From positions 186,001-250,000 of the forward strand of contig NZ_JACOFV010000001.1 in the NCBI RefSeq assembly GCF_014284255.1: DNA of 64,000 nucleotides. The letters run 5' to 3'. The position numbers and the translations under genes were made by a program. How positions within the stretch are numbered: position 1 is the stretch's first letter; each line of letters starts with the position of its first letter. The stretch comes from Cognatundibacterium jejuense. GTDB lineage: Bacteria > Pseudomonadota > Gammaproteobacteria > Burkholderiales > Burkholderiaceae_D. Of the stretch, positions 10,184-63,332 are shown in pieces. The notes beneath the pieces were generated by a model. That model saw only the letters and a program-made list of their open reading frames with translations, made no database searches and had not been told where the DNA came from.

Positions 10184-13024
10184 ATGTCAGACAAAATGCA
10201 TAAACAAAAAAGAACATCTGTGATTTCTCTGGGACACAAAGCCTTGAGTGTTGCTGTAACCTCAACTTTGCTTTTAATGTCAAATGCCCACGCCACTGGC
10301 ATGGGACGACTAACTGTTCTGTCAGCTTTGGGGCAGCCTTTACGGGCGGAAATCGAGCTTACGTCTCCCAATAGGGATGAAATTGACACGCTGGTGCCGA
10401 AGTTGGCTTCTGCGGATGCATTTCGTCAGGCGAATATCGATTTCAATAATGCATTACTTTCTTTGCGTTTTGCGATAGAGCCCAAAGGTGCAGGTTACGT
10501 TATTAAGGTTTCTTCTGCCCAGCCGATCAATGAACCTTTCGTTGACATGCTGTTAGAAATTACCTCGTCTAATGGCAAATTGTTGCGTGAATATACGTTC
10601 CTGTTAGATCCTGCTGAATTAAGAAATTCTCAGTCGCCGCAGGTAACTAATCCAAATGTTGTTGTAAATAAGGGACAATTTTCCACGTCGAATCAAACGG
10701 AGGCGCGTCCGTCATCGTCTGTTGCTGCTAGTGCAAGTTCACAAGTTTTTGCTAAAAAAATTCCGTCTCAACCTGCGCAGTCAAACAAAGCGCCGTCTGA
10801 CGAATATGCGGTCAAGCCTGGTGATACTCTCGGTAAAATTGCAGCCTCTTATAAACAAGATGGCGTTTCACTTGATCAAATGTTGGTTGGTTTGTACAGA
10901 GCTAATCCACAAGCCTTTGCCGGTAAAAACATGAACCGCCTTAAGGCTGGTCAGATACTCAGCGTTCCTGATGCTGAAACGGTGCGATCAACCGCTGGTG
11001 GTAATCCTGGTGCACACTCCGTCGTGGTTGCGCATGCGGCAGATTTCAATGCTTACCGTAATCATCTAGCTGACTATGTCGAGCATGCTCCTGCCGCTAA
11101 GCAGGTGCCTGAAAAGCAGAGCGCAGGTGGTGCAATTACTGCCAAGGTTAAGGAACTTCCAACGGCAACGAATGAATCAGCGGATAAATTAAAGCTTTCC
11201 AAAGCTGCCCCAAGTCCAACGGAAAAAGGTGGTAACGGTAAGGGTGTTTCTGAAGAAGAAAAGGTCGCCAAGAAAAAGGCAACTGAGGAAGCGGCCAATC
11301 GCTTGAAAGAGTTGGAAAAAAATGTCGGCGATTTGCAACGTCTTCTCGATGTAAAGAATAAAGATTTGGCGGCAAAAGAAGCTGAGTTGAATGCAAAGGG
11401 TAAAGATAAGCAAGTTGTTGCTAGTGGGGCTGCGGCATCAATGCCAGCACCAGCAGCTAAAGCTGTCGGTGCTCCAGCATCCTCTGCGGTAAATGTGGCG
11501 GCGAGTGCACCTGCAAGCTCAGCTGTCGTTGCGGCTGTACCCGCATCTGAGCCAAAAGAAAAGAGTGTGGCGAGTGCTGCTGATACTTCTGCAAGTGCCG
11601 CATCTGTCACTCCAGTGAAGCCTAAGCGTCATGTGGTTGCGCCGCCACCGCCACCGGAACCAAGCTTCTTTGATAGCATGTCTGACTGGTTATTGCCAGG
11701 CGGTGGCGTGTTGTTGGCGTTGCTTGCCGGTGCAGGTGTCTGGATGAATCGTCGTAAGAAAAAACTTCAGCAATTTGAAGATAGTATCCTGACTGGCTCC
11801 AGTATGAAGGCGAACTCCATGTTCGGCTCTACTGGTGGGCAAAGTGTGGATACCAATAATAGCGTTTTCAATTCCAATTTTGCACCGTCTGCCAGTCAGC
11901 TTGATGCGAATGAAGTTGACCCTGTCGCAGAGGCGGATGTCTATATTGCCTATGGTCGTGATTCTCAGGCTGAAGAGATTCTGAAAGAAGCGTTGCGTAC
12001 ACAACCTGATCGTCATGCGGTGCGTTTGAAATTATTAGAGATTTACTTTGCACGCAAAGACGCTAAGCTGTTTGAGCGCCTCGCAGGTGAGTTGTACGGG
12101 ATGACAAGTGGTCAGGGCGATGAGTGGGCTCAGGCTGCCTCTATGGGGATTGTTCTTGAGCCCGGCAATCCTTTGTACGCTGGCGGTAAAGCAAAGACAG
12201 AAATGGTGTATGGAGCTGGTCTCGGTTCGCCAACCCAGCCACTTGAGGATCTTGATCCTGATGCATTGTTGGGTAACTCATTGTCTCGGGATATGTTGGA
12301 TGCAATAAGCATTATCGATACTGCCTCGCACGGCGAAGCGAAAGAGTCTGAACACTCTGCTTCAGTTGCGTTGGATGAGCACGTTGCCGAAAGTCATGAT
12401 GTTGGGTTAGATTTTGATTTGGGAATTGGTGAAGTCGAAGTTCCACAAATACCCGAATCACCATCGCATGATTCTACGCTGGGCGTTTCTGAGCAAATTC
12501 CTGAGGTAGATTTCGGTTCTATTGACTTTGATTTTGGTGAAAGTAAACCTGTTGATTCTGCGATAGAACAGCCAGTTCACCAATCTGCACACTTGGCATC
12601 TGATGGTGAGGATTTGCATGCGCTTGATTTTGCTGAACCTAAATCCGAAGTGCCTGCTTTTGATTCGCACTTCGAATCGGAAATCCCTGTTGTTGCTGAA
12701 GAGCTGAAATTGCCGCTTGAAGATGATCATCACGATGCACATGAGTCGATGCCAGAGGCTGCTTCCGCATTTGAGTTTGACCTGTCTGGTATTAGCCTTG
12801 ATTTGCCTTCGGACGCCTCGCATGTCGCTGAAGTTGCTGCCGACCCGGTAGTTAGCGAATCTCCGGCAGTTAATGCTGAGATGGCGACTAAGCTTGATCT
12901 CGCAGTTGCTTATCACGAAATTGGTGATAAAGAAGGCGCGCGTGAATTGTTGGATGAGGTGTTGAAGGGTGGTACTGCTGAGCAAAAAGAAAGAGCTGGT
13001 ACCATGCTGGCGCAAATGGCCTGA
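10184..13024 (+). CDS. fimV: FimV/HubP-type polar landmark protein
   Basis: A 946-residue inner-membrane protein. A signal peptide (cleavage likely after AHA at 35-37) leads to the conserved N-terminal FimV domain (LGQPLRAEIEL). A LysM peptidoglycan-binding domain spans about 206-263 (YAVKPGDTLG...ILSVPD), then a Lys/Glu coiled coil at about 356-410, an Ala/Ser/Pro linker, one membrane span at about 508-525, and an acidic cytoplasmic region rich in Asp/Glu. A TPR-like segment follows the span and the C-terminal FimV motif (about 899-946, LDLAVAYHEIGDKEGAREL) ends the protein. Known relatives recruit type IV pilus, chemotaxis and flagellar placement factors (FlhF/FlhG, ParA-like ATPases) to the cell pole. 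It is a single gene with its own promoter and terminator. Confidence 0.9.
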   Translation: MSDKMHKQKRTSVISLGHKALSVAVTSTLLLMSNAHATGMGRLTVLSALGQPLRAEIELTSPNRDEIDTLVPKLASADAFRQANIDFNNALLSLRFAIEPKGAGYVIKVSSAQPINEPFVDMLLEITSSNGKLLREYTFLLDPAELRNSQSPQVTNPNVVVNKGQFSTSNQTEARPSSSVAASASSQVFAKKIPSQPAQSNKAPSDEYAVKPGDTLGKIAASYKQDGVSLDQMLVGLYRANPQAFAGKNMNRLKAGQILSVPDAETVRSTAGGNPGAHSVVVAHAADFNAYRNHLADYVEHAPAAKQVPEKQSAGGAITAKVKELPTATNESADKLKLSKAAPSPTEKGGNGKGVSEEEKVAKKKATEEAANRLKELEKNVGDLQRLLDVKNKDLAAKEAELNAKGKDKQVVASGAAASMPAPAAKAVGAPASSAVNVAASAPASSAVVAAVPASEPKEKSVASAADTSASAASVTPVKPKRHVVAPPPPPEPSFFDSMSDWLLPGGGVLLALLAGAGVWMNRRKKKLQQFEDSILTGSSMKANSMFGSTGGQSVDTNNSVFNSNFAPSASQLDANEVDPVAEADVYIAYGRDSQAEEILKEALRTQPDRHAVRLKLLEIYFARKDAKLFERLAGELYGMTSGQGDEWAQAASMGIVLEPGNPLYAGGKAKTEMVYGAGLGSPTQPLEDLDPDALLGNSLSRDMLDAISIIDTASHGEAKESEHSASVALDEHVAESHDVGLDFDLGIGEVEVPQIPESPSHDSTLGVSEQIPEVDFGSIDFDFGESKPVDSAIEQPVHQSAHLASDGEDLHALDFAEPKSEVPAFDSHFESEIPVVAEELKLPLEDDHHDAHESMPEAASAFEFDLSGISLDLPSDASHVAEVAADPVVSESPAVNAEMATKLDLAVAYHEIGDKEGARELLDEVLKGGTAEQKERAGTMLAQMA

Positions 13025-28112: not shown

Positions 28113-29264
28113 ATGGCCGAAGAAAGCGATCTCGAGAAAACTGAACCGGCCTCGTCGAAGCGCCTTGAGCAGGCGCGCGAAGAGGGGGATGTGCCGCGTT
28201 CACGCGAGCTCTCCACCTGTGCCATTTTATTTGCGGCTGGTGGCGCATTTTGGGTGATGGGCGGTGGTTTAGTCGGGCAATTGCAGCAAAGTTTGATCTC
28301 CGGACTCACTCTTGAACGTGCTGTCGCCTTTGATTTTAATTTACTGATATCTAAAGCTGCGGCGAGTTTGCTATCCGTTTTGATCGCGTTTGCGCCGGTG
28401 GCTGGGGTGTTGATCGTGGTTGCATTGGGATCGCCGGTTTTGATTGGTGGTTGGTTGTTTAGTGCAAAAGCAATTCAACCAAACTTTGGTCGCATGAATC
28501 CAATTTCCGGCTTAGGGAATATGTTTTCTGTGCGTGCCTTGGTCGAATTGCTTAAAGCTATAGTGAAAACGATTTTGGTTGGCTGGGTCGCCTGGATTGT
28601 CATTACACAACAAAAAGAAGCGATTTTTGCTTTGCCTATGGAAGATGTCTCTTCGAGCATTCCGCATGTTGGGCACATGCTGTTGATTTGTTTCATTTCT
28701 ATTGTTGGTGCTTTGGTATTGATTGCGGCAATCGATGCACCTTATCAAATGTGGCAGTACGCAAATAAATTGAAGATGACGCGTCAGGAAGTTATTCAGG
28801 AATCGAAAGAAGCCAACGGTAATCCTCAAATTAAAGCCAAGATTCGTCAGCAACAGCGTGAAATGGCACGTCGTCGCATGATGGCAGAGATTCCTAAGGC
28901 TGATGTCGTTGTGACTAACCCGACCCATTTTGCGGTGGCGCTGAAATATACCGAAGGTGGAAATGGCGCACCTAAGGTTGTGGCTAAAGGTGCGGACGAA
29001 GTCGCAGCAAAAATTCGTGAGCTCGCTAAAGAGCACAATATTCCAATGCTAGAAGCCCCGCCATTAGCACGTGCCTTGTTTAAGCATACCGATCTGGGGG
29101 ATGAGATTCCGGAAGCTTTGTATGGCGCGGTAGCAGAGGTCCTGGCCTACGTTTATCAATTAAGGACGTATCGTCGTGATGGCGGTTCTAGACCAGAAGA
29201 GCCGCGCGAATTAAAAGTACCAGAAGAATTAGATCCAAATAATCAGTTAGGAGTTGTTGAATGA
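28113..29264 (+). CDS. flhB: Flagellar export switch protein FlhB
   Basis: Inner-membrane component of the flagellar type III export gate; its autocleavage switches export from rod/hook to filament substrates. 383 residues: basic N-terminus (SSKRLEQAREEGDVPRS), four membrane spans, and the cytoplasmic domain with the self-cleavage site NPTH at about 269. GGAG precedes the ATG. First gene of flhB-flhA-flhF-flhG-fliA-motC-motD, with 4-bp overlap to flhA. Confidence 0.97.
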   Translation: MAEESDLEKTEPASSKRLEQAREEGDVPRSRELSTCAILFAAGGAFWVMGGGLVGQLQQSLISGLTLERAVAFDFNLLISKAAASLLSVLIAFAPVAGVLIVVALGSPVLIGGWLFSAKAIQPNFGRMNPISGLGNMFSVRALVELLKAIVKTILVGWVAWIVITQQKEAIFALPMEDVSSSIPHVGHMLLICFISIVGALVLIAAIDAPYQMWQYANKLKMTRQEVIQESKEANGNPQIKAKIRQQQREMARRRMMAEIPKADVVVTNPTHFAVALKYTEGGNGAPKVVAKGADEVAAKIRELAKEHNIPMLEAPPLARALFKHTDLGDEIPEALYGAVAEVLAYVYQLRTYRRDGGSRPEEPRELKVPEELDPNNQLGVVE

Positions 29265-56190: not shown

Positions 56191-56404
56191 GATATTTCTC
56201 CAGCTAAATTTGAAGTGACCGCTATTTTACGTCTCCTAGCTAAGTTGTGGGGCTGTTTGCTTTTGAATAAGCGCGAATAGAGGGGTTTTTCTTCCTTTGC
56301 TTGCAGGATTGTTTGTTTTTTCTTCATTGATAATTAAGGGTAAGAAGTTCCGAAATGGCTAGGCCGGCTATTTTGGGGAACGGCTACCAAATCAGGAGTG
56401 AAGT

Positions 56405-59400
56405 ATGGACAGCAATCAGACATTGTTAAACAAATTTTCTTTGGGAGGATTCTCTCTCGATCGCCTCGCCGATCAGAAAGAAGATTTCTCGTCTTCTCCT
56501 GATGCGCTTGAGTCGAATTCCCGGATAGACGTTAAAGGCATTCGCGAAGCCATTGCGCGTGTAGAAGCTGAGGCACGTGCAACCGTTGCTGCAGAAACCC
56601 GCCTTAAAGCAGAAACCCAAGCGCGTATGCTTGCTGAGTCGCGTGCGCAGGTTGAAGCGGAAACTGCAGAATTAGCTCAGAAAAAGCTTCAAATAGAACA
56701 AGAAGCTGTGCAAAGCAGTCAGGCCAGGTTGCTTGCTGAAAAACAATCCCAAACTGCCAGCGTGGCACGTATCGCCGCCAATGAGCAAGAAACACGCGAC
56801 TTACAAGAACGCGCCGAAATGGAGAGCCGTGCCCGAGCGCAATCTGAGCAGCGTCAAAAATTAGAACAAGAAGCAAAAGCGCGTGCCGAGCTGCAATTTA
56901 AAGCAGAACAAGAAATCACCGCCAAGGCACAAGCGGCCGCTGTTAAATTAAGTAAGCAGACAGAAACTGCACGTTCATGGGCGGCAGAACGCGTCGCTGC
57001 GTCCGAAGACGCTCGTCAGCAAGCAGTGGAGCGCGCTCGTGCTGACGCACGTATTGCCGAATTAGCGCGTGAACGTGAACGTCGTGAGCGTGAAGCGCGC
57101 GAAACTGCCGAAGCACTGGTTAAAGTTCGTAGCGAAAGCTTACAAGTCAGTAAAGAACGCGAACAGGCCGATGCAATGGCGCTGGAATTTGCACTTAACC
57201 GTGCACCAATAGAAGCCCGTGCCCGTGAAGATGCTTTGGCTCGCGTAGCGATAGAACAAGAGCAAGATGCGATCGCTCAGGCGCGCATGGAATCTGAACG
57301 TCGTGCCGCCGAAGCAATTCAACTGCGCATGCAGGCGGAACAAGAATTGCATGTAGCTGCGACCCGCCGTGAACAAGCCGAATTAGCAGCGGCAGCTACT
57401 GCCCAGGCAAGACGTGAAGCTGAAGATAAAATTCGCCAGGTTACTGAATCACGTATTCGTGCCGAACGTGAATTGCAATCTACAGCAATGAGCCGCATAG
57501 AAAACGAACAGCAAGCGGACGCGCAAGCGCGCGCACGTATGCAAGCCGAAGCCGAGGCAGCTGAAGAAGCACGTCAGCGTCGTATCGCCGATCAGGAGGC
57601 AACCGATATTGCACGTCAGCGTGCAGCGGAAGAGCAACGCGCTGCTAAGCTCGCAAAAGAAAGAATTGAGATCGAAAAAGTCGCGATTGAAGCGGCGCGC
57701 CAGCAAGCCGATGCGGAACAACAAGCATTGAGTGCTAGTGCGTTCCAGGCTGAACTCTTAAAACGCGCCAATATTGCTTCTGAATTGAAGGCAAAGCGTG
57801 CCCAAGAACTCACCCAGGTTGAGCAAATGCGCGCCGAAGCAGAACAAAAAGCGGCTGCTGCCTTAGAGGAAAAGCTTCAGGCAGAGCGTCAAAGAACTGA
57901 AGAAGCGGAGGTACGTGCCAAAGCCGATCAAACTCATGCTGAACTCATGCGTATGCAAGAGGCTGCCGAACGTGCAGCGCGTATTGCCCAGGAAACTGAG
58001 TGTGCAGCAGAAAAAATTGCTTTAGAGCAAGCAATGGAGCAAGCCGACCTGCAACAAAAAATGGCCGAAGCAACGGTCAAACGGAGCAGGGATGTGACTG
58101 AACTGCTGCGCGTGCAACAGCAACGCGCTCAAGATGAGGCGAAAGCGATGGAGATCCTGGACGAAAAACTCGACGTTGAACGTCGTCGTGCTGACGCAGT
58201 TCAGCAAATGCTCAAAACAGCCGAGGAAAAGCTGGCGCTGGAGCAGGCTGCGCAGCTAGAAGCTGAGAACAAAAAGCGTGTTGAGGAGCAAATGAAAGCC
58301 ATCGCGCAAGCCAAAGAACAGGCAGAACGCGAGCAAAGAATCGCGCTTGAAATGGCTGCAAAGGCTGAAAAAGAAGCCTTAGAACAGGCAGAAATTCAAA
58401 AAGAAATGCAACTCAAAGCAGCTTCCATGGCGGAGCTCAAAAGCCGCCAGGCGCTGGAAATGACCCGTGCAGAGCAGGTAAGAAATGAAGCCGAAAAGCA
58501 AGCTATTCGTGCAGCACAAGAAAAACTGGAAGCGGAACGCGCCACTGCTGAACAGGTCATTGCACGTGCGCACGCTGATCGCGAGCATGTGAATGTATTG
58601 CAAGCACGTCAGCAACAAGAAGCGGAAACCAGAACAACTCGTCTGGCCTTAATTCAGGCAGAACAGACACGTCTGCAAAAAATGCAAGAACATGCCGAGC
58701 TGCAAAAGCAGGCAGCGCAAGCGGCTCAAGAGAAAGTTTTGGAAGCAGAAGAGCTTGGTAAAACATTGAAATTGCGTGCGGAGTCCGAGCAAACGGCATT
58801 AACTTCTATTCGCGAGAAACTCGAAGCTGAGAAGCAATTGACAGCGGAGTTGCAAGCAAAAGCCAAAGTAGAAGAAGAACAACGTAATCAACATCTGACC
58901 TTGCTTGAAACTGAACGTAATTTGCGTGTTGCGACTGAGCTCAAGTTGGCTGAAGAGAAAAAATTAAGCGAAGAAAACGCGGCACAGGCGAAAGCCGAAC
59001 AACTCGCTGCCGAAGCAGCTGCGGCCAGGGTTAAAGCGGCAGCCCAATTGACTCGCTTGGAACAAGAAAAGGCACAATCTCAACAGCAAGCAGCGTTAGC
59101 GCTGGAGCAGCAAGCCAAGTTAGAACAAGAAAAAGCAGTAGCGGAAAAATTAGCTGCCCAAGCCACCCTTGAGAAATTGGCAGCAGAAAAAATCGCCCAC
59201 GCCGCTGCTCAGGCCACTGCTCAGGCTGAGCAAGAGCAAGCAATTGCAGCATCTGCCCGCGCTGTTGCAGAACAAGAGGCGAGTGAAATGGCAGCGGCAA
59301 AACTGGAGGCAGAAAGAGCGCTGCAAGCGCAAGCGCAGGCCTACGCCGCTAGCCAGCACAAAGCACATCAATTAGTAGTTGAAAAAAATCGTCGTATCGC

Positions 59401-61840
59401 TGAGTTAGAGCAAGTTGTTTTGCAACGTGTTGCAGATGATGCTGCGTTATTGGAAACGACAGAACAGAAACTCTCTGCTGAAAAAAGAGTTCAGCAAGAA
59501 GTAGAGAGCCGTTTGTGTAGCGAAACGCAGGCAAAAGAATTTGCTGAGGCAAACGCGCATGCAGAACATGTTGCGCGCCTCGCTGCTGATGCGACGCTTG
59601 CTGCACAACGTGCGTTGCATCAAGAGCTGGCGGCGCATGTGGATGCACAAAAATTGATGGCAGAATTGGCAAGCCAACGATTGCAACAAGAGCAGCAATT
59701 GCGTGCTGCGCAAGAAGAGCGTAATCAAGCAGAACAAGCCTTGATTGCTATGCTGGCTGAAAAGCAACAAGCCGAAGTGAACGCAATCGAGGCTGCACAA
59801 GCCCGCCTGGCTGTTGAGCAAGAACATGTCGCCTTAATTTATGCTCGTCATCAAAGCGATGAAGAAGCGAGATTAGCAGTGGACGCGTTGAATTCGGCAG
59901 AAAAACAATGGCTTGCAAAATCCGCTGAAGAGGCATTGATCAAACGGGAAGCCGCAGCAGCGCTCGAACAAAAAACATCTTTATTGCTTGAGTCTAGCCG
60001 TGCTGAACAGCAGCGCTTGGCGCTTGAGCAGCAATTAAGTATCGAACTTGATGCGAAACTTCATTCTGAATTGCAGGCACAATCCGCTGTTCAGCAACGA
60101 TTAGAGGCAGAGCAGGCATTGGCTAAAGTTGTTGCAGAGCGTACCGAGCAAGAACAATTGGCGAATGCCGCCGCGCAACAACAATTAGCAACCGAACAGA
60201 CGATTTTTGTGAAATCGCAGGAACACGCTGAAGCACAGCGCTTGGCGGCTAATGCAATGGAAGAAAAATTGCGTGAAACTGAAGCCTTAGCGGTTTTGGA
60301 AAATCGTCGTGCTGCAGCGGCTTTAGAAGAGTTAAGTGCTGTTCAGCAGAAAATTGTGGCTGAGCAAAAAGCACTGACAGAAGCGGAGCAGCGCCAGCAG
60401 GCGGAGCAGGGATATTTGCAATTAGCCGACATTCGCGCACAGGCTGAGCAGGACGCGAATGTTGCCATGCAGATGAAACTGAATGCTGAAAAAGAAGCGA
60501 CAGAATTGGCATTGATGCACGCCGCAGCACAAATTGAAGCTTCAGAATTGGCACAAACAAAAGCAAATGAATTACTTTCATTGCAACAGTTAGAGTTGCA
60601 GAATGCTGAGCTTGCTCAGCGTGAAATCACGGCATTGGAGCAACAAAAACAGCGCGAGCAAGAAACTTTGCGTTTAAAGCAGCAGGCCTTGCAGGCGATT
60701 GAAGAAAAAATGGATGCAGAAGTATTGCTGCTTAAAGCATCCGAAGATCGTTTGCACGCAGAGGCTGAACTTGCTTTGCAGAGCAAAGAGCGCGCCCGTC
60801 TGGCTGTCGAAGCTGCAGCGTTCGAGCAAGAAAAATTAGCACTCGAACAGTCGTTAAGTATCGCCACAACGGCGCAGATAGAGCAAGCACAACAAGTAAT
60901 TGCCGCCATGAATGAACGTATCGCCCAAGAGCAGGCGCTTGCGGAATTGGAAGCACAGCGATGCGCAACTGAACAAAAGTTAGCTCAGGATGTCGCCTTG
61001 CGTATTCAGGCTGAACAAACATTGCTGGCTGATTTGGCGCTACAGGAAGAACAAGAGGCCGCTTTTGCTGATATGTTGTTGCAACGTCGCGCGGAGCAAG
61101 CGGCTGCTAAACATGCACTGGAGCAAGCTCAGGAGCAATTGCAACATCAGGCAATGACAATGTCTGAAGAAGATTTGCAGCAACAAGCTTTGCAAGATCA
61201 GTTGCAAAAGCAGTTGCAAGAGCAAATTCGTCTGCTTCAAGAACAGCAATCGGTTGAAACTGAAAATTTAAAACAGCTCGCTCTCGAACAAGAATGTGCG
61301 TTGCAAGCCGAGGCAGAACAAGTGCGCTTGAAGCTTGAGGCTGAGCGTCAACAGGCAGAAAATGTGGCGAATGAATTGATCGCCAAATTGCGTCAAAAGC
61401 AGCAACTGACACAAGAATGGCGCATGCAAGTTCAGCAAATATTGGCTAATGCTCCTGTTGCTGTGGAAGATATCGATGTTCTGGCTGAGCCTGAAATAGT
61501 ACAAGTTCAGGAGCGTTTCCGCTTCCGTATGCGTCCATCAGTACTTGCCGGCTTAATGATGTGTGCTGGTGTTGTTGGCGCAGTAGGGTTTGCCGGTTTC
61601 GGTAGCTATCTACCAGTTTCTTCAGCATTCGCAGTGAATGCACCAGCTCAGGTCCAACGTGCTCACGTTGTTGCTCCCTCAAAGGTCAATCCAAATATGC
61701 AATTGAGTTATGAACTGGCCGCGCCAGTGCAAGTAAAAAAAGCTGAAGTGCAGAAGTCAACCGATGAAAAATCAGTCAAAGGTAATGTAGACGAAAAAAG
61801 TAAATCAGAAGTTCAAATTGCTCTGGCTGGCTCAAAATAA
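56405..61840 (+). CDS. Giant 14-residue-repeat coiled-coil protein with C-terminal membrane anchor
   Basis: 1811 residues. A short N-terminal head (1-50, ending DALESNSRIDV) is followed by about 1630 residues almost free of Pro and Gly and rich in Ala, Glu, Gln, Lys and Arg. Many stretches fall into exact 14-residue units of the form xAxxxARxRxxAEx, for example from about 355 to 460 (QADAQARARMQAEA, EAAEEARQRRIADQ, EATDIARQRAAEEQ) and again from about 920 to 1190. Two heptads per unit indicate a long parallel coiled coil or rod. A membrane span follows at about 1713-1736 (VLAGLMMCAGVVGAVGF) after a basic RFRFRMRP, then a short Lys/Val-rich tail. By the positive-inside rule the rod is cytoplasmic and the tail periplasmic. 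AGGAGTGA precedes the ATG. No family recognised; a scaffold, cytoskeletal or polarity role is a guess. Frame intact throughout; ends at a strong terminator. Confidence 0.85.
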   Translation: MDSNQTLLNKFSLGGFSLDRLADQKEDFSSSPDALESNSRIDVKGIREAIARVEAEARATVAAETRLKAETQARMLAESRAQVEAETAELAQKKLQIEQEAVQSSQARLLAEKQSQTASVARIAANEQETRDLQERAEMESRARAQSEQRQKLEQEAKARAELQFKAEQEITAKAQAAAVKLSKQTETARSWAAERVAASEDARQQAVERARADARIAELARERERREREARETAEALVKVRSESLQVSKEREQADAMALEFALNRAPIEARAREDALARVAIEQEQDAIAQARMESERRAAEAIQLRMQAEQELHVAATRREQAELAAAATAQARREAEDKIRQVTESRIRAERELQSTAMSRIENEQQADAQARARMQAEAEAAEEARQRRIADQEATDIARQRAAEEQRAAKLAKERIEIEKVAIEAARQQADAEQQALSASAFQAELLKRANIASELKAKRAQELTQVEQMRAEAEQKAAAALEEKLQAERQRTEEAEVRAKADQTHAELMRMQEAAERAARIAQETECAAEKIALEQAMEQADLQQKMAEATVKRSRDVTELLRVQQQRAQDEAKAMEILDEKLDVERRRADAVQQMLKTAEEKLALEQAAQLEAENKKRVEEQMKAIAQAKEQAEREQRIALEMAAKAEKEALEQAEIQKEMQLKAASMAELKSRQALEMTRAEQVRNEAEKQAIRAAQEKLEAERATAEQVIARAHADREHVNVLQARQQQEAETRTTRLALIQAEQTRLQKMQEHAELQKQAAQAAQEKVLEAEELGKTLKLRAESEQTALTSIREKLEAEKQLTAELQAKAKVEEEQRNQHLTLLETERNLRVATELKLAEEKKLSEENAAQAKAEQLAAEAAAARVKAAAQLTRLEQEKAQSQQQAALALEQQAKLEQEKAVAEKLAAQATLEKLAAEKIAHAAAQATAQAEQEQAIAASARAVAEQEASEMAAAKLEAERALQAQAQAYAASQHKAHQLVVEKNRRIAELEQVVLQRVADDAALLETTEQKLSAEKRVQQEVESRLCSETQAKEFAEANAHAEHVARLAADATLAAQRALHQELAAHVDAQKLMAELASQRLQQEQQLRAAQEERNQAEQALIAMLAEKQQAEVNAIEAAQARLAVEQEHVALIYARHQSDEEARLAVDALNSAEKQWLAKSAEEALIKREAAAALEQKTSLLLESSRAEQQRLALEQQLSIELDAKLHSELQAQSAVQQRLEAEQALAKVVAERTEQEQLANAAAQQQLATEQTIFVKSQEHAEAQRLAANAMEEKLRETEALAVLENRRAAAALEELSAVQQKIVAEQKALTEAEQRQQAEQGYLQLADIRAQAEQDANVAMQMKLNAEKEATELALMHAAAQIEASELAQTKANELLSLQQLELQNAELAQREITALEQQKQREQETLRLKQQALQAIEEKMDAEVLLLKASEDRLHAEAELALQSKERARLAVEAAAFEQEKLALEQSLSIATTAQIEQAQQVIAAMNERIAQEQALAELEAQRCATEQKLAQDVALRIQAEQTLLADLALQEEQEAAFADMLLQRRAEQAAAKHALEQAQEQLQHQAMTMSEEDLQQQALQDQLQKQLQEQIRLLQEQQSVETENLKQLALEQECALQAEAEQVRLKLEAERQQAENVANELIAKLRQKQQLTQEWRMQVQQILANAPVAVEDIDVLAEPEIVQVQERFRFRMRPSVLAGLMMCAGVVGAVGFAGFGSYLPVSSAFAVNAPAQVQRAHVVAPSKVNPNMQLSYELAAPVQVKKAEVQKSTDEKSVKGNVDEKSKSEVQIALAGSK
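56560..61440 (+). repeat. 42-bp-period repeat array within the giant gene
   Basis: The protein repeat of 14 residues equals 42 bp, giving room for about 115 units. Units are diverged at DNA level, with different codons for the same residues, so this is an old protein repeat rather than a recent microsatellite. Confidence 0.7.
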
Positions 61841-61868: not shown

Positions 61869-61907
61869 AAAATCCCGTTATCGAGTGTGGTAACGGGATT
61901 TTTTTTG
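61869..61907 (+). terminator. Rho-independent terminator after the giant gene
   Basis: AAATCCCGTTA-(TCGAGTGTGG)-TAACGGGATTT with eight T residues, about 30 bp after the stop. Confidence 0.92.
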
Positions 61908-61964: not shown

Positions 61965-63332
61965 CTACTTGAATTTGATTTCAGGAAAAATCATGACGGC
62001 TACGAAGCCTTTGTAGTCGTGATTGTAAATACGCATTCTACCGCGATGTCGGCGTACGATGCGGTCGACAATAGCGAGTCCGAGACCAGATCCGTTTGCC
62101 TGACTACGTGATGCGTCAGCACGTGTGAATGGCTTGAGAAGTTTGGTGAGATCATCACTCTTTGCACCTTCGCCATAGTCGCGGAAGCTAACCAGAACGC
62201 CTTGCTTTTTTCCTTTATTTTTAAGGCTGCACTGTATTTCGATGACGGTATTTAGATTGTCAGGATTTTTGCCATAGCGGCACGAATTTTCTATCAGATT
62301 GCTAAACATGCGCCGCAATTCAGTGGTGTTGCCAGAAATCATCTGGCCAGGTGCAATCGATGAATGGATGTGCAAGTAATTAACGCGGGAATACTCGTGG
62401 ATTACTTGTTCCAGTAATGCGCTAATGTCGATCATGTCGAAGCGCAGACTATCAATCGGTTTTGCGTAATCCAAAAATTGGCTGATGATGGCATCCATTT
62501 GTGCCAGATCAGACTGCATTCCCGTGCGTGCCTGATCATCGAGTACTGCCATTTCGACCTCTAGTTGCATACGAGCCAAGGGTGTTCTCAGATCATGGGA
62601 AATACCCGCAAGAATGATGGTGCGATCGGTTTCAATCCTGGCAAGATCTTCTACCATATTATTAAAACTGGCATTTGTTTCGCGTATTTCTTTCGGGCCT
62701 ATCTCAGGCAGTGGTTGCGGTTGCTTGCCTTGCGCCAAAAGTCGCGCCGCGTTCGTTAAGCGAGATAATGGATCGTTGATTAATTTGGATATAATCGCGG
62801 CGCCGAGCAGGGTAAAAATCAGTGTTGCTGAAGCCCAGCTAATGATTGGCAGGGTAAACGGCGGATCTAAGCGATCTTCTTCAAGTCGCAGCCAATATTG
62901 GTCGCCTTCAATGTCAAAGCTGACCCAAAAACCTTCTATTCCGTTGACTGATTTGGCAAAACGCGTTTCTTTGCCCATCTGAATTTTCATCAAATAGCTT
63001 AGCTCAGAAAAAAAAGCGCTAGTTTCTGGAGGGTCGGTTTTATCACCTTCATTTAAGGTGTAAATTCGTATGCCTTCGTTGTTTGCCAGATCGAGTAATA
63101 ATTCTTTTCGTCGTTCAGGTGCCGAATGTGTGAGTGCGGCGCGAGTAATGGTGACGATGGATGTTATCTGTGTGGTAAGTTGTTGTGCGCGAGGGTAGCG
63201 CTCTAAAGTCCGGAAGCTCATAAACCAGACAGTCATGCTGGCCATCACAAGTGCAGCCAGCATGAAAAAAGTGCGCCAAAACAGACCGCTGCGTAGCCAT
63301 TCAAGACTATTTAAATAGGAACGCATTTGCAT
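61965..63332 (-). CDS. EnvZ-type sensor histidine kinase
   Basis: 455 residues. Membrane spans at about 18-38 and 160-182 flank a periplasmic sensor region of about 120 residues. HAMP follows (about 180-235), then HisKA with phosphorylated His246 in LAGISHDLRTPL, and an HATPase domain (N-box NLIENSCRYGKN, G-boxes DYGEGA and GSGLGLAIV). Belongs with the regulator gene that ends 14 bp upstream. The layout resembles EnvZ, but the target system is not shown by the sequence. Confidence 0.93.
   Translation of the reverse strand: MQMRSYLNSLEWLRSGLFWRTFFMLAALVMASMTVWFMSFRTLERYPRAQQLTTQITSIVTITRAALTHSAPERRKELLLDLANNEGIRIYTLNEGDKTDPPETSAFFSELSYLMKIQMGKETRFAKSVNGIEGFWVSFDIEGDQYWLRLEEDRLDPPFTLPIISWASATLIFTLLGAAIISKLINDPLSRLTNAARLLAQGKQPQPLPEIGPKEIRETNASFNNMVEDLARIETDRTIILAGISHDLRTPLARMQLEVEMAVLDDQARTGMQSDLAQMDAIISQFLDYAKPIDSLRFDMIDISALLEQVIHEYSRVNYLHIHSSIAPGQMISGNTTELRRMFSNLIENSCRYGKNPDNLNTVIEIQCSLKNKGKKQGVLVSFRDYGEGAKSDDLTKLLKPFTRADASRSQANGSGLGLAIVDRIVRRHRGRMRIYNHDYKGFVAVMIFPEIKFK

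Follow-up and report, generated by a model that had tools for sequence, protein, structure and literature searches.

Giantin, golgin-84 and CASP, the tail-anchored golgins, are eukaryotic proteins of the Golgi in which a long coiled coil with a C-terminal anchor projects into the cytoplasm, and excerpts of a published account give golgins a predicted reach of 100–600 nm (PMC4707255). The same layout recurs in a protein of 1811 residues encoded in a 64,000-nucleotide stretch of the Cognatundibacterium jejuense genome (contig NZ_JACOFV010000001.1, positions 186,001 to 250,000 of the forward strand), here called the window. In this window protein a C-terminal span is preceded by a long coiled coil, but an 80-residue tail follows the span, and golgin coils have frequent short breaks, so that the likeness is an analogy of layout and not a demonstrated kinship. 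Among bacterial scaffolds, PodJ of Caulobacter is described, in excerpts of its source, as having cytoplasmic coiled coils, one span and a periplasmic C-terminus (PMC8980812). The window protein also has a single span with the coiled coil, probably cytoplasmic, on its N-terminal side; it differs in having a single rod, about 1640 residues long, and a short tail devoid of domains. Pfam searches of its C-terminal 230 residues gave no match, and neither these nor the C-termini of 41 members of its family contained the periplasmic TPR or peptidoglycan-binding domains of the PodJ type. The 41 C-termini gave only four weak matches, each in a single member (E 0.0019–0.0088), and YscW was matched in one of 30 members (E 0.0008); these were taken as chance, and neither a Pfam domain nor a YscW identity was accepted for the relatives. 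The family is best read as resembling golgins or PodJ in layout while being a member of neither.

Crescentin and FilP, the bacterial proteins that resemble intermediate filaments, are coiled-coil rods with short ends, as the window protein is, and they are not known to have a membrane span; no crescentin-like match to the rod was found among PDB chains, which were compared by sequence only. TolA shares with the window protein an alanine-rich helical stretch and one span, but its span is N-terminal, its helix periplasmic and its C-terminal domain globular, whereas in the window protein the strongest hydrophobic window is residues 1713–1731 of 1811 and the rod is probably cytoplasmic. With no N-terminal span and no Pfam match anywhere in the protein at E up to 1, membership of the TolA family was rejected. 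SMC, MukB and Rad50 have an ABC-type ATPase head and a hinge; neither domain was detected in the window protein by Pfam or NCBIfam and its ends are predicted to be disordered, so that this membership was rejected too. NCBIfam returned no family match for the whole protein either, and PDB chain sequences were not matched by A4 (30 members) or P0001 at E up to 0.001, nor by A5 (41 members) at 0.01. A literature search by title and start of abstract, mostly without subscription papers, found no description of the family.

As given in excerpts of a survey of 22 proteomes, coiled-coil domains longer than 250 residues are largely absent from bacteria, and none longer than 400 was counted in ten bacterial genomes; SMC, MukB and Rad50 have the longest prokaryotic coiled coils, although discontinuous predictions such as SMC were left uncounted (PMC1322226). 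Against this stands a conserved bacterial family, without name or described function, whose rods measure roughly 700 to 1800 residues, evolve under strong selection and are of near-fixed length within a genus.

The rod and its 14-residue period

Between residues 43 and 1682 the window protein contains a single proline (P268) and three glycines (G45, G785 and G1336). Identity autocorrelation over residues 41–1680 is 0.214, 0.190, 0.209 and 0.186 at lags 14, 28, 42 and 56, against a baseline of 0.125 ± 0.008 from 200 composition shuffles; at lag 7 it is not raised (0.106), from which it follows that the two heptads within the 14-residue unit differ. The Fourier spectrum peaks at about 2.0, 2.33, 3.5, 4.67 and 7 residues, all of them harmonics of 14. 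A cyclic 14-state hidden Markov model (HMM) scores 489 log units above background, other periods giving 265 (7), 136–228 (10–13 and 15–18), 331 (21) and 602 (28), while shuffled copies gain 110–138 under the period-14 model (three shuffles, two seeds each). The Bayesian information criterion is negative for all the cyclic HMMs tried, because each carries many parameters, and the shuffles are therefore the control to trust. The register jumps eight times in 1645 residues, and since four of these jumps are of exactly half a unit, the heptad continues across those four.

The fitted unit has arginine or lysine at one position (0.70), glutamate or aspartate four residues further on (0.70), and positions rich in alanine and leucine; both of its hydrophobic stripes have a charged residue at one of the four core positions. 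Opposite charges at i/i+4 occur 138 times in the rod compared with 63.8 ± 6.6 in shuffles, and like charges 13 times compared with 66.7 ± 7.3. AlphaFold was applied to single chains, with 30 family rows for residues 1–400 and 41 for residues 1582–1811. In the former it predicts helix at 43–248 and 252–399 (mean pLDDT 82, with 216 of the 400 residues at 90 or above), and in the latter at 1583–1682 and 1711–1726, before a disordered tail (mean pLDDT 72), so that both modelled parts are predicted to form long helices. These results support an α-helical rod with a true 14-residue, two-heptad period. As the α-helix rises 0.1485 nm per residue, 1640 residues would reach about 243 nm if fully extended.

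An earlier note on the window, made from the letters, had described a stretch of about 1630 residues nearly devoid of proline and glycine, some 115 units (1640/14 gives 117), a rod of about 240 nm and one C-terminal span behind a basic cluster, and all of this holds. The 14-residue peak, the absence of which would have counted against that note, lies far above the shuffles. Its proposed unit, xAxxxARxRxxAEx, agrees with the fitted one at most positions, except for the first arginine. The same note took the protein for a giant with a layout of its own, outside known families such as those of TolA or SMC. The searches of Pfam, NCBIfam and PDB sequences bear out the latter point, but the protein is not alone, being one of a widespread family. 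Its attachment to the membrane is likewise indicated by a candidate span in all 49 long forms, the window protein included, whereas the Janthinobacterium and Massilia members of the family end before the span.

The family, its anchor and its length

Relatives in the genome collection come first of all from Undibacterium. The first 98 residues find a match in 39 of the 43 genomes of this genus, among them 34 of the 35 good ones, the remaining good genome (G031) having a match to the C-terminus, and one or the other is detected in all 35; the C-terminal 151 residues alone match in 29 of the 43 and gave no match in plasmids. Across the GTDB family, the head profile A1 detects the gene in 174 of 294 genomes, which belong to 23 of the 44 genera; among good genomes the figure is 162 of 261. 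The multi-genus profile A3, at E up to 1e-9, gives 165 of 288 genomes in 24 of 44 genera; it missed seven from Undibacterium that were picked up by the profile built on that genus. At the level of the order, A3 detects 15 of 399 genomes, six of them in other families. The starts of five of these six members, which were read, resemble the N-terminal module; L215, L217 and L218 possess a tail and, close to the C-terminus, a hydrophobic stretch, and in L214 and L216 the contig ends before the protein does. Judged by sequence matches, this unnamed family spans much of the Oxalobacteraceae, with few members in other families of the Burkholderiales.

A total of 121 relatives' loci were confirmed and 80 kept, of which 74, together with the window, make up the 75 untruncated members analysed; the contig-truncated rows L136, L142, L156, L157, L159 and L192 were left out of the counts for periodicity and span, gaps, length, tree, motif and topology. 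Identity at lags 14 and 28 is raised in all 75. Proteins in the loci read range from 754 to 1996 residues, the 27 read from Undibacterium loci having 1657–1996 and six further anchored members from other genera 1024–1716. The module at the N-terminus, some 270 residues long, has few gaps across genera except in the divergent Undibacterium rows L140 and L143.

A 19-residue hydrophobic window above 1.6 is present in 42 of the 75 members and one of 1.41–1.6 in seven more long forms, so that a candidate span is carried by each of the 49 long forms, while the 26 Janthinobacterium and Massilia members (754–812 residues) have neither span nor tail and a best window of 0.66–1.13. In the module tree these 26 rows group together as a single clade (100/100) that adjoins anchored genera; L140 has a very long branch. 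When the hydrophobicity cut-off is set at 1.4, three changes of the span label are needed on this tree instead of one, as L215 (1.33) and L218 (1.39) fall just below it although each shows a hydrophobic stretch and a tail, and L214 and L216 are truncated by contig ends. Given that the clade lies beside anchored genera and that the out-of-family members are apparently anchored, the simpler reading is that the anchor was lost in the Janthinobacterium/Massilia clade. In 48 of the 49 long forms the 12 residues ahead of the span contain more lysine and arginine than the 12 that follow, with one tie (160 against 18 in total), and this distribution gives good support to an orientation in which the N-terminus of the long forms would lie inside and the C-terminus outside. 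In the tail, L-x-M-S-Y-x-L is found in strict form in 42 of the 48 other long members and in relaxed form in 47. As a separate observation, A-x-A occurs just past the span in 25 of those 48 (window positions 61598–61660), and could be a signal-peptidase site that frees the tail.

The rod has a dN/dS of 0.03–0.10 in ten close pairs, dS being saturated in an eleventh (the window against L121), which indicates strong purifying selection. No 42-bp tandem array was found by TRF in the DNA of the gene, and the 14-residue repeat is therefore old. Aligned at high gap cost, the window protein is 73–74% identical to L120 and L121 and stays free of gaps as far as residue 1577. In the 269 pairs with an identity of 60% or more, the rod region contains 143 gaps, and their lengths modulo 7 are 0 in 64, 4 in 42, 1 in 29 and other values in eight; the first three classes (135 of 143) are the heptad, stutter and skip that a coiled coil absorbs. 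Rod length, measured between the AIARVEA anchor and the juxtamembrane tryptophan, is 1100 residues in five of the six rows of the Herminiimonas group and 1093 in one. The nine rows of the Noviherbaspirillum group have 1271 in five, 1173 in two and 970 in one, the tryptophan of L171 being mis-picked, and the 27 Undibacterium rows 1520–1833 (mean 1623, s.d. 71). Within a genus, rod length is often kept to the residue.

Tether, filament and other readings

The reading that we favour, tentatively and at somewhat less than an even chance, is that the family comprises C-terminally membrane-anchored, cytoplasmic coiled-coil tethers or scaffolds. It is suggested by the 14-residue period, the near-continuous heptad register, the predicted helices and the i/i+4 charge pairing, as well as by the low dN/dS of the rod, the heptad-compatible gaps, the length kept within genera, the colinear module and the basic residues that precede the span. 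In the proposed model, chains would pair through their heptad faces into a stiff rod that could reach about 243 nm. The C-terminus would sit in the inner membrane with the periplasmic tail binding a partner in the envelope, and the N-terminal module would be kept far inside the cytoplasm, there perhaps capturing or positioning a client such as a protein complex or the nucleoid. Module and rod would be the indispensable part, as one clade retains both without the anchor.

Several results weigh against this model. The anchor is absent from the 26 Janthinobacterium and Massilia members and from two more in another genus of the family, L224 and L225 (1073 and 1075 residues). The gaps were counted per pair and not per event, without a shuffle control and at high gap cost, many of those of 4 and 8 residues lie close to the C-terminal end, and rod length varies modulo 7 among the Undibacterium rows. 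Net charge over 20 residues, a cruder measure, places the N-terminus inside for only 28 of 48 long members. Moreover, the charged core residue in both stripes means that a simple parallel dimer is not assured.

The present evidence does not tell a tether from a filament, and the main rival, possible but less probable than a tether, is a cytoskeletal filament former acting as crescentin or FilP do, whose rods would join lengthwise or laterally beneath the membrane, pinned to it by the span. The long coiled coil with its short unstructured ends and the soluble forms of one clade would suit it, while the rod has no sequence match to any PDB chain and a polymer has no obvious need of strict length conservation. 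The charged residues at alternate core positions could pair better in an antiparallel dimer. Such a pair would carry a span at either end and rest flat against the inner membrane, serving to sense curvature or as a 240-nm strut; the span-less relatives could not be held at both ends, and this arrangement is improbable. Slightly more improbable still is a single unpaired charged helix acting as a plain spacer: single α-helix domains have very high charge and i/i+4 pairing, and the rod's pairing is strong, but its charged fraction is only 0.32, and the 14-residue period and continuous heptad register point to packing with partners. That a protein so repetitive and rich in alanine, glutamate and glutamine is a low-complexity product of slippage without selected function is refuted, as far as these data go, by the dN/dS of the rod, the lack of a DNA tandem array and the presence of the gene in every good Undibacterium genome.

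If the tether or scaffold reading is pursued further, a more doubtful extension of it is a bacterial counterpart of the golgins, in which tail-anchored rulers of fixed length would hold the N-terminal module at a genus-specific distance from the inner membrane, with length altered mostly in heptad quanta and the anchor cut in one clade. Equally speculative are the distances that it would imply, about 240 nm in Undibacterium and about 165 nm in Herminiimonas. Were a tether or ruler to be true, bacteria too would use giant tail-anchored coiled coils, organising space at the scale of the cell radius; the natural series of lengths and the anchor-less clade make the idea directly testable.

The gene and its surroundings

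The features of the gene are collected in Table 1. As the earlier note had it, the gene is one uninterrupted frame of 1811 codons, without internal stops; the longest open reading frame (ORF) listed on the opposite strand is of 126 residues, and the genome carries a single copy. The terminator claimed for the gene can be recognized as a hairpin with a T run, but such hairpins are not above chance as a class in the stretch (14 found, 11.5 ± 3.0 expected).

Table 1. Features of the rod gene and its product, in window positions.
Feature	Residues	Position	Strand	Basis or remark
Whole gene	1–1811 and stop	56405..61840	+	ATG at 56405, stop ends at 61840
AGGAG, likely ribosome-binding site		56394..56398	+	Sequence read; about 6 nt before the ATG
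Head	1–42	56405..56530	+	AlphaFold pLDDT mostly below 50; varies in other genera than Undibacterium, in which it is conserved
N-terminal module, RIDVKGIREAIARVEAEARATVA... to about ARMESERRAAEAI	39–310	56519..57334	+	Colinear across genera; alignments of 28 and 30 (A4) members
Rod of 14-residue units (about 117)	43–1682	56531..61450	+	Composition, autocorrelation, HMM; helix predicted at 43–248, 252–399 and 1583–1682
Predicted helix break	248–252	57146..57160	+	AlphaFold; near conserved NR-P-E-RARED (P268)
Near-invariant juxtamembrane Trp, rod end	1672	61418..61420	+	Invariant in A5 (41 members)
Single membrane span after RFRFRMR	1713–1731	61541..61597	+	Mean Kyte-Doolittle 2.04; short AlphaFold helix 1711–1726
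Tail, predicted disordered, probably periplasmic	1732–1811	61598..61837	+	AlphaFold; flanking basic residues
Tail motif MQLSYEL (L-x-M-S-Y-x-L)	1765–1771	61697..61717	+	Conserved among long members
Terminator-like hairpin, 15 pairs then T run		61869..61902	+	Hairpin scan

The two-component pair reported nearby is indeed present on the opposite strand, consisting of a regulator with receiver and Trans_reg_C domains and a sensor kinase (61965–63332, minus strand) whose periplasmic domain is of the RisS type (PF16524, E 1.3e-34). By tblastn, and with some contigs being short, the kinase lies near the gene in 21 of 28 loci of the Undibacterium group and upp in 20; neither was found at good identity near the rod gene in other genera, so that the pair is a poor guide to function. 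In the Herminiimonas/Noviherbaspirillum group, 18 of 19 loci have a TPR protein downstream of the rod gene and 16 have a YkuD L,D-transpeptidase there; a Cds6_C domain occurs in each of these two proteins (L148:14073–16522 and relatives), and the best match to the transpeptidase in the window's genome is on another contig. As neighbours differ between genera, the neighbourhood was judged a weak guide and no function was drawn from it.

Upstream in the window, at 28113–48687, runs a long series of flagellar-looking ORFs, named by eye (FlhB/FlhA, basal-body rod, hook). A role as general flagellar companion was rejected for the rod gene, given that flagellin is present in 267 of the 294 genomes of the GTDB family and the gene in 174 (plain counts, kinship ignored). 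Another ORF named by eye, at 10184–13024 on the plus strand, looks FimV-like, with a LysM-type motif, a later span and a TPR-like end.
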